From Erysipelotrichaceae bacterium (GTDB lineage: Bacteria > Bacillota_I > Bacilli_A > Erysipelotrichales > Erysipelotrichaceae): a stretch of 64,000 bases of DNA. The stretch is taken from assembly GCA_017404205.1 (NCBI GenBank), contig JAFRCV010000021.1:62001-126000 (forward strand). The letters run 5' to 3'. The position numbers were made by a program, and so were the translations under genes. Below the pieces are notes generated by a model. That model did not search any database, was not told the DNA's origin, and was given only the letters and a program-made list of their open reading frames with translations. Below are positions 42,557 through 45,281 of the stretch, one piece after another (position 1 is the stretch's first letter; the number at the start of each line of letters is the position of its first letter).

Positions 42557-43408
42557 ATGGCTTATTTATCAAATGAGAATCGAAAGAAAAATATTGAAGA
42601 AATCATTAAAAACTTTCGCCCCATTGATGATACATTTCTATCACTGTTAATTCAAAGCAATTATAAAGTTGCTGAATACATATTAAGAGTAATAATGGAA
42701 ATGCCATCATTAAAAGTATTAGAAGTACATTCCCAAGACTTCACTCAAAATATCTTTGGAAGATCGGCAAGATTTGATATTCTCGCTAAAGATGATGAAG
42801 GAAAAATATATAACATCGAAATTCAAAGATCAGATGCTGGAGCAACGCTTAAAAGAGCAAGATTCAATAGTTCAATCCTTGATATAAAAGGAATAAACTC
42901 TGGTGATAGTTGGGATAAGTTAAATGAAACTTATGTAATATTTATAACTGAGAATGATGTATTAAAAGATGGCTTACCAATCTATCATATTGAAAGAACT
43001 ATTATAGAGACTTGTAAGCAATTTAAAGATGGAGAACATATTATTTATGTCAATTCATCACATCAAGATTTGACAACCGATTTAGGAAGATTGATGCACG
43101 ACTTTTATTGTAGTGAGGCAAGTAAGATGCTTTCACCAATCAAGGAGGTTGTTCAAAAAATCAAAAGTAGCAAGGAGGGAATCGCAAATATGTGTGAAGC
43201 TATGGAACAATTTGAAAAAGAAGCAATAAGCAAAGGCAAAGCTGAAGGCTTAGCAATAGGAATAAAAAAAGGAGTTGAACAAGGTCTTGAGCAAGGCATG
43301 AGTAATGCTAAAAATCTTTTTATTGATATGCTTCAAAAAGATTTTGGTTTTTCATATGAAGATGCTGTAAAGAAAGCAAATGAAGTAATTAATAGAAAAA
43401 ATGATTAA
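42557..43408 (+). CDS. Rpn/PDDEXK-family transposase-like nuclease
   Basis: A 283-residue protein with the Rpn/PDDEXK_2 layout: FRPIDDTFLSLLIQS at the N-terminus, then the catalytic block ARFDILAKDDEGKIYNIEIQ (Asp, then E-I-Q) and RARFNSSILDI. The C-terminal half has a coiled region with repeated GxEQGLEQG-like sequence, common in this family. Rpn proteins are nucleases thought to promote RecA-independent recombination and are often called transposases, but no inverted repeats were seen here. A perfect AAAGGAGG precedes the ATG. Convergent with the Cas9 remnant. Confidence 0.85.
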   Translation: MAYLSNENRKKNIEEIIKNFRPIDDTFLSLLIQSNYKVAEYILRVIMEMPSLKVLEVHSQDFTQNIFGRSARFDILAKDDEGKIYNIEIQRSDAGATLKRARFNSSILDIKGINSGDSWDKLNETYVIFITENDVLKDGLPIYHIERTIIETCKQFKDGEHIIYVNSSHQDLTTDLGRLMHDFYCSEASKMLSPIKEVVQKIKSSKEGIANMCEAMEQFEKEAISKGKAEGLAIGIKKGVEQGLEQGMSNAKNLFIDMLQKDFGFSYEDAVKKANEVINRKND

Positions 43409-43424
43409 CATATTTTAATTACTA

Positions 43425-43619
43425 TTAAACAAACACAAGAATAGCATTAGTATTTACTCTTTTAAGTCTAGCAAAATTAATTAGAGTAGCAAAACTATTG
43501 GTTTTATCGCCTTCAGGAAACAATCTTACTCCTGCATCTATTACATCGCCCTTATCAGTATCAATGATTCCCCACCCAACTGTTGTTATGCCTTGATCTA
43601 TGCCAAGTATTTTTCCCAT
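43425..43619 (-). pseudogene. Cas9 N-terminal remnant (RuvC-I)
   Basis: The 64-codon frame begins MGKILGIDQGITTVGWGIID, followed by GDVIDAGVRLFPEGDKTN. This is the RuvC-I start of Cas9, including the catalytic Asp of GIDQG and the IDAGVRLFPEG element typical of type II-C-like Cas9s. After that the sequence loses similarity: the expected arginine-rich bridge helix is replaced by FATLINFARLKRVNTNAIL and a stop. No cas1, cas2, tracrRNA or repeat array is visible in the window, so this is a decayed fragment. Confidence 0.75.
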
Positions 43620-43674: not shown

Positions 43675-44820
43675 TTATTCTGTTCCTTGTTTTAATATGT
43701 TCATGTATTCTTCATATACAAATAGTCTATTCCTACTATTGTTATCTATTTGAACTAATACATTTATACTGATTAATTTTTCAATTGCTTTTGACACTGT
43801 GTTAAAAGAAAGGTTTAAAGCTTTAGCTGTTTTCCCTATTTCAATTATTGGATGAGCCTGTAAATAATCAAATAAAATAACAATACTCTTGTTTGCTTTA
43901 AATGATTTATTAATCTTGCTAATATTGTTATCACGAACAACGATTAGTCTTTTTATTGTTTTTATTGCATCATCACATGATTCTATAATGGCAGTTAGAA
44001 AAAACTTTATCCATTGTTCATAGTTTCCTTGTTTTCTTACTTCTGATATACGATCATAGTATTCGATACGATTGTTTTTTAAATAATAAGAAATATACAA
44101 AGATGGCGATTCCAAAACATTATTTTCTATTAAATAGAGAATTATTAAAAGCCTTCCTACTCTACCGTTGCCATCTAAAAATGGATGTATTGTCTCAAAT
44201 TGGTAATGAATTAAAGCAACTTTGATTAAATGGTCTATTTCTTCGTTATTGTTGATATAGTTTTCGAGGTTATTCATAGCTTTCAACATATCTTCAACAT
44301 TAGGAGGCACATATACAGCGTTCTTTAAAGTTGATCCTCTTCCACCAATCCAATTTTGTGTTTTTCTAAATTCACCTGGATTTTTTTCTTGTCCTCTTGT
44401 ATTGTCTAATAGAATCTTATGAATCTCTTTCATAAATCTGCAACATATAGGGAGTGTTTTTAGTCTATCTATGCCATATTCATAAGCTTTAATATAATTA
44501 ATGACATCATCTACATCTAGGTTGGTATTTGTTTCAATTGAAGGATCTAGGATATCATTCAAACTAGCTTGAGTTCCTTCTATTTGTGAAGATAATAAAG
44601 CTTCTTTTCTCAAATACATTGAAATAAAAAGATTTAAATCAGGTATTTGTGTAGTTATATCATTTAAACTAGCAATGTTTTTATTTGCGTTTATTAATAA
44701 TTTATAAATTTCATCATCTAAATTGAGTTCAAAGTTCAGTGGCAAAAAAGTTGGCACGAAAGATTCGTATGCCAATTCTCCTTCTAAATTCTTTATATAT
44801 GTCCCAGCTTTACTATTCAT
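43675..44820 (-). CDS. Fic family protein with C-terminal winged helix
   Basis: A 381-residue Fic protein, expected to AMPylate a target Tyr/Thr/Ser using ATP. The class II inhibitory motif S-x-x-x-E-G is SSQIEG (Ser77-Gly82), the active site HPFLDGNGRVGR (His212-Arg223) is intact, and a GEFRKTQNWIGGRG flap precedes it. The last 80 residues form a winged helix-turn-helix (IIEIGKTAKALNLSFNTVSKAIEKL). The promoter TTGAAA-17-TATAAT ends 6 nt before the ATG, so a leaderless mRNA is predicted. Inverted repeats overlap this promoter, suggesting autoregulation by the HTH. Confidence 0.93.
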   Translation of the reverse strand: MNSKAGTYIKNLEGELAYESFVPTFLPLNFELNLDDEIYKLLINANKNIASLNDITTQIPDLNLFISMYLRKEALLSSQIEGTQASLNDILDPSIETNTNLDVDDVINYIKAYEYGIDRLKTLPICCRFMKEIHKILLDNTRGQEKNPGEFRKTQNWIGGRGSTLKNAVYVPPNVEDMLKAMNNLENYINNNEEIDHLIKVALIHYQFETIHPFLDGNGRVGRLLIILYLIENNVLESPSLYISYYLKNNRIEYYDRISEVRKQGNYEQWIKFFLTAIIESCDDAIKTIKRLIVVRDNNISKINKSFKANKSIVILFDYLQAHPIIEIGKTAKALNLSFNTVSKAIEKLISINVLVQIDNNSRNRLFVYEEYMNILKQGTE

Positions 44821-44826
44821 ATGAAA

Positions 44827-44938
44827 ATTATATCGTCTTTATTTCAGTTTTTCAATAAATATTGAAATAAGAATGTTCCTTATTTCATTTTTTTATAAAA
44901 AAATGAAATAAGGAAATATTTTTTTGCTTCTTATTTCA
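44827..44938 (-). promoter_or_regulatory. Fic promoter and operator array
   Basis: Promoter: -35 TTGAAA (44850-44855), 17-bp spacer, TATAAT (44827-44832), ATG at 44820. Operators: TTATTTCA-N16-TGAAATAA occurs twice with identical geometry (44839-44870 and 44880-44911), and a fifth half-site TTATTTCA lies at 44931-44938. The second pair sits inside a perfect 36-bp palindrome (44878-44913). The first pair encloses the -35 box, so a bound repressor would block RNA polymerase. Confidence 0.75.
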
Positions 44939-45257: not shown

Positions 45258-45259
45258 AA

Positions 45260-45281
45260 AATAAGGCATATGCCTTATTTT
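45260..45281 (-). terminator. Intrinsic terminator of the VanY-type gene
   Basis: An AT-flanked palindrome AAATAAGGCAT/ATGCCTTATTT overlapping the stop codon, with a T-rich tract on the minus strand. Confidence 0.75.

Follow-up and report, generated by a model that had tools for sequence, protein, structure and literature searches.

The fic gene of the window (the whole 64,000-nucleotide stretch of Erysipelotrichaceae DNA that was analysed) very probably encodes a Fic protein that forms a dimer and acts as an autorepressor. Direct autorepression through a C-terminal winged helix had been proposed in an earlier sequence-only reading of this DNA. Comparative analysis now supports the proposal well, through a predicted winged helix in the protein, operators that recur before orthologous genes, and covariation of the operator bases with the recognition helix and wing.

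The fic product (43675–44820, minus strand) is a protein of 381 amino acids, which consists of a Fic_N domain, a Fic domain and a C-terminal winged helix, as judged by Pfam, PADLOC and structural matches. The Pfam matches have E-values of 2.9e-23 for Fic_N and 3.7e-22 for Fic. The catalytic motif HPFLDGNGRVGR (residues 212–223; 44152–44187, minus strand) is invariant at almost every position in 35 orthologues and agrees with the pattern HPFx[D/E]GN[G/K]R of class II Fic AMP-transferases. An inhibitory helix motif, SSQIEG, occurs at residues 77–82 (44575–44592, minus strand) as S77-SQI-E81-G82, which is the N-terminal position typical of class II; residues 77, 78, 79, 81 and 82 are invariant in the 35 orthologues and I80 is conserved in at least 90%. 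The two motifs together therefore place the protein in class II, as a predicted AMP-transferase.

The best defence profile for the fic product is PADLOC SoFic (9.2e-118). The NCBIfam equivalog model for SoFic (NF046030) is matched with 189 bits against a cut-off of 550, and on its sequence the protein belongs to the wider SoFic family rather than to the Shewanella equivalog. An AlphaFold model built on the 35 orthologues has a mean pLDDT of 86.7, and both SoFic and a Fic protein of Mycobacterium marinum align with its entire length (Z scores of 35–36). The SoFic structure (3zcn) aligns with residues 6–379 of the model (Z 35.7, rmsd 2.8 over 349 residues). The profile match and the full-length fold with a C-terminal winged helix, both features of the anti-phage SoFic system, are found here. 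The winged-helix region comprises residues 311–376 (43693–43890, minus strand), where pLDDT is mostly 80–95; it is modelled with helices at 311–322 and 328–334, a recognition helix at 339–351 and a wing at about 356–368. The C-terminal winged helix that had been read from the sequence is thus predicted with confidence.

Upstream of fic, the inverted repeat TTATTTCA-N16-TGAAATAA occurs twice. The promoter-proximal copy, O1 (44839–44870), is the counterpart of the core operator conserved in orthologues. The second copy (44880–44911) forms the core of O2, and a fifth half-site, TTATTTCA, is present at 44931–44938, where it resembles the flanking half-sites of orthologues. The sequence-only reading had described both copies with exact coordinates and 16-bp spacers, and also the fifth half-site; it had correctly placed the second copy within a larger perfect palindrome, but this palindrome is 40 bp long (44876–44915) rather than 36. 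By chance 0.01 TTATTTCA/TGAAATAA pairs with spacers of 10–22 would be expected in 64 kb. The exact repeat is found in the 1.62-Mb genome only at O1 and O2. A search of the whole genome allowing up to three mismatches gave 135 matches compared with 116 for a reversed control pattern, a small excess on which we do not claim other targets.

The fic promoter lies on the minus strand (TTGAAA-17-TATAAT, 44855–44827), matches the consensus at 11 of 12 positions and is the sole strong promoter-like match in the region. Its -35 box, TTGAAA (44850–44855), falls within the spacer of O1, so the first palindrome does enclose the -35 box as had been suggested. Just 6 nt separate the -10 box, TATAAT (44827–44832), from the ATG, and the fic transcript is therefore probably leaderless, with its start at or beside the start codon. 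The arrangement TATAAT-TTTCAT-ATG (44818–44832, minus strand) differs from that of most orthologues, which retain a leader containing both a ribosome-binding site and a half-site.

If these sites are operators of fic, the same motif should recur before homologous genes, and it does. Relatives were collected from genome contigs (78 loci), with the remainder from whole genomes and plasmids. Of the 89 upstream regions examined first, 57 contain a perfect inverted repeat of 8 bp with 16 bp between the arms, against 1.2 expected. In an enlarged set, reduced to one member per group of 85% identity, it was found in 43 of 92, against 1.0 expected from shuffled sequences. Elsewhere in these loci such a repeat was present in 25 of 2961 windows of 130 nt, and in 18 of 875 that were AT-rich. 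The operator accompanies the gene across several phyla, as given by record titles that are mostly those of metagenome bins, and on plasmids. About half of the 92 relatives (less than 85% identical to each other), mainly the more distant ones, have no perfect N16 repeat. Many distant homologues, which include Thermus, haloarchaeal, several rhizobial and cyanobacterial sequences, have other repeats or none, and we therefore do not claim N16 for the entire SoFic family.

The core N16 repeat usually encloses the -35 box in relatives. A good -10 box was present in 41 N16 cases, and in 37 of these it begins 5–6 bp past the right arm. An additional half-site lies downstream of the -10 box in 30 of the 41, with a gap that is nearly always 19–20, and upstream of the core in 33, with a gap of mostly 18–20. 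From these counts and gaps the usual layout is an alternating array of half-sites: a gap of 19, the N16 core over the -35 box, and a gap of 19 over the -10 box. The window departs from this layout in two ways. There is no half-site past the -10 box, where there is no room for one. Upstream, a second full palindrome lies 9 bp from O1, which is 10 bp, or about one helical turn, nearer than 19, and the fifth half-site then follows O2 at the 19 bp seen in relatives. One orthologue (L111) also has two N16 palindromes before fic; this gene and a second orthologue (L112) come from genomes of the same class and contain in-gene TGA codons, as expected for code 4.

Autorepression by a protein with a Fic domain and a winged helix is already known. 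CccR of Yersinia pseudotuberculosis is such an autorepressor, as demonstrated by reporter, footprint and gel shift experiments, and its operator is AGATAATCAT-N26-ATGATAATCT, with 10-bp arms near the -35 and -10 boxes (PMC9755527). Judged by the published description of CccR, the window protein shares with it the Fic domain and C-terminal HTH, the class II inhibitory helix, the dimer (proposed here) and the inverted repeat at its own promoter, which in both cases covers the -35/-10 region. The arms, however, are separated by 16 bp rather than 26, both here and in the 43 of 92 relatives, and fic of the window has two full palindromes with 8-bp arms plus the fifth half-site, where CccR has a single repeat. 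A T6SS delivers CccR as a toxin, whereas the window protein has no sign of secretion. It is the covariation described below that points to sequence-specific binding and repression of the CccR type here.

CbFic2 of Coxiella burnetii binds DNA through its winged helix, which leads to dimerization and changed activity (PMC10628234). It has the same domain order as the window protein, but the DNA that it bound was random, it modifies histone H3, no operator is described for it (PMC10628234), and its fold matches the model less well (Z 24.0, rmsd 7.7). Fic might, by comparison with CbFic2, act on its array as an activator or switch instead of a plain repressor, repressing when inactive and being released or activating when it AMPylates. 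The alteration of CbFic2 activity and dimerization on DNA would fit this possibility, as would the several half-sites that flank the promoter in the arrays. We consider it unlikely all the same: in most cases the -35 box lies inside the core site, which favours exclusion of polymerase, and CccR is a repressor whose toxic and regulatory activities are reported to be independent.

In relatives the arm pairs TTATTTTG/CAAAATAA, TTATTTTA/TAAAATAA, AAAACGCA/TGCGTTTT, AAATTTCA/TGAAATTT, TTATTATA/TATAATAA and ATATTTCC/GGAAATAT all keep 16 bp between them, as does the pair TTAATAAA/TTTATTAA in Cupriavidus. Both arms change symmetrically between relatives at N16, and the arms are therefore more than inherited AT-rich sequence. 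A two-fold symmetric protein would be their natural reader.

For 56 representatives, each of 318 variable protein columns was compared with the arm bases by mutual information, with correction by shuffling. Residue 340 ranks first of the 318 columns for arm position 7 and for the inner positions 7–8 together. At these positions N340 occurs with CA (31 cases), S with TG, K and A with TA, and P mostly with AA or AG. The top column for arm positions 1–4 is N364, and residues 363–365 are among the best columns for the outer arm bases. Six of the ten best columns for arm position 5 (R365, F339, T341, R363, Q357 and N364) are at the start of the recognition helix or in the wing. This enrichment has a hypergeometric p-value of 1.7e-05, uncorrected for the number of positions tried and calculated for a set of DNA-facing columns that was chosen after an earlier, smaller ranking, and such p-values are indicative only. 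In the model, residue 340 lies at the beginning of the recognition helix and residues 363–365 lie in the wing. For arm positions 3, 6 and 8 the DNA-facing columns are not prominent among the 318. Since every column shares the common ancestry, the ranking serves as a fair internal control. Few independent evolutionary events lie behind the covariation: residue 340 changes seven times on the tree, and the well-supported branches give one independent pair, so that a sign test is without power.

Conserved neighbours, co-encoded regulators and antitoxins were also looked for. No family, not even the best one (type I restriction-like genes), occurs in over 4 of 56 loci, and no small antitoxin gene like AS1 was recognised at fic of the window. 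With no conserved neighbour family and no other exact site in the genome, the Fic protein is the sole candidate regulator that travels with the operator. The sites could belong to a different host regulator, unlinked to fic but controlling it, in which case the Fic winged helix would not be their reader. Binding by the Fic protein is deduced from comparison of sequences, and the C-terminal domain of EcSofic is reported to be important for toxicity by contacting the AMPylase domain (PMC12249575), a role which needs no DNA. This explanation is nevertheless very improbable, since the operator accompanies fic in many lineages and on plasmids, and the arm sequence follows the recognition helix and wing of Fic itself. 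That the palindromes are an AT-rich hairpin, a transcription terminator or a mobile repeat that binds no protein can be given almost no weight: the 40-bp palindrome scores as terminator-like on both strands in a scan, but it has just 3 G-C pairs, there are no further copies in the genome, no Rfam match was found, vanY apparently has its own terminator at 45258–45281, and relatives conserve both the spacing and the symmetry of arm changes. A terminator and a structured RNA were both rejected.

Several genes around fic and elsewhere were recorded. Directly 3' of fic, an open reading frame of 64 amino acids (43425–43619, minus strand) matches the N-terminus of Cas9 (TIGR01865, 3.1e-9) and is apparently the remnant of a truncated cas9. 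A gene for a nuclease-transposase of the Rpn/PDDEXK_2 family (42557–43408, plus strand) lies between fic and an apparent rpsF-ssb, and fic therefore appears to be within a small accessory insertion. The same genome contains a second Fic gene (G000:C1:56175-57173) with weak similarity and three in-frame TAA codons, which is probably a pseudogene. SoFic-type genes at three loci (L123, L126 and L135) and at loci among the 56 adjoin type I restriction-modification or DUF1156/helicase genes, which is consistent with defence islands.

In the mechanism that we infer, from binding and dimer stoichiometry through repression rather than activation and cooperativity between palindromes to its purpose, each C-terminal winged helix of a Fic dimer would grip one TTATTTCA half-site of the N16 repeat. 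The recognition helix, through residue 340, would read the inner bases and the wing, through residues 363–365, the outer ones. A dimer bound at O1 over the -35 box would exclude RNA polymerase, and O2 and the fifth half-site would allow further dimers to line up side by side, making repression stronger. Such repression would probably serve to hold a potentially self-toxic AMPylating defence protein of the SoFic type at a low level.

Among the closest known systems are also SoFic of Shewanella oneidensis (SO_4266) and the anti-phage proteins SoFic and EcSofic. The window protein is like them in full-length fold, Fic motif, N-terminal inhibitory helix and PADLOC profile, but it is 24% identical to the SoFic structure. 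DNA binding by SoFic had not been demonstrated (PMC10628234). EcSofic is thought to be toxic when expression is leaky, and how it is restrained before phage infection has been stated as an open question (PMC12249575). We infer that autorepression would help to restrain this SoFic-type protein.

Control by the Fic protein's own modification (AMPylation) state, which the sequence-only reading had also raised, is put forward as a hypothesis, and CbFic2 lends it some support by analogy. A doubtful extension, although one with some chance of being right, is that binding to the array at its own promoter keeps the dimer inactive, or in a deAMPylating state, and that activation on phage infection also frees it, so that expression and toxicity rise jointly. 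If this were true, a self-read array of half-sites would be a sensor-amplifier common to a large part of the SoFic-type family, and operator binding would belong to the safety catch of these proteins.

The literature searched, which consisted of open-licence papers, gave no description of the N16/N19 array, of its occurrence in several phyla and on plasmids, or of the arm-recognition code. The code appears to be visible in the correspondence of residue 340 and the wing with the arm bases. Autorepression has so far been described for one Fic protein, and these results suggest that it is common. The conserved self-operator may provide a transcriptional answer to the question of SoFic restraint, for a large and widely transferred group of genes.
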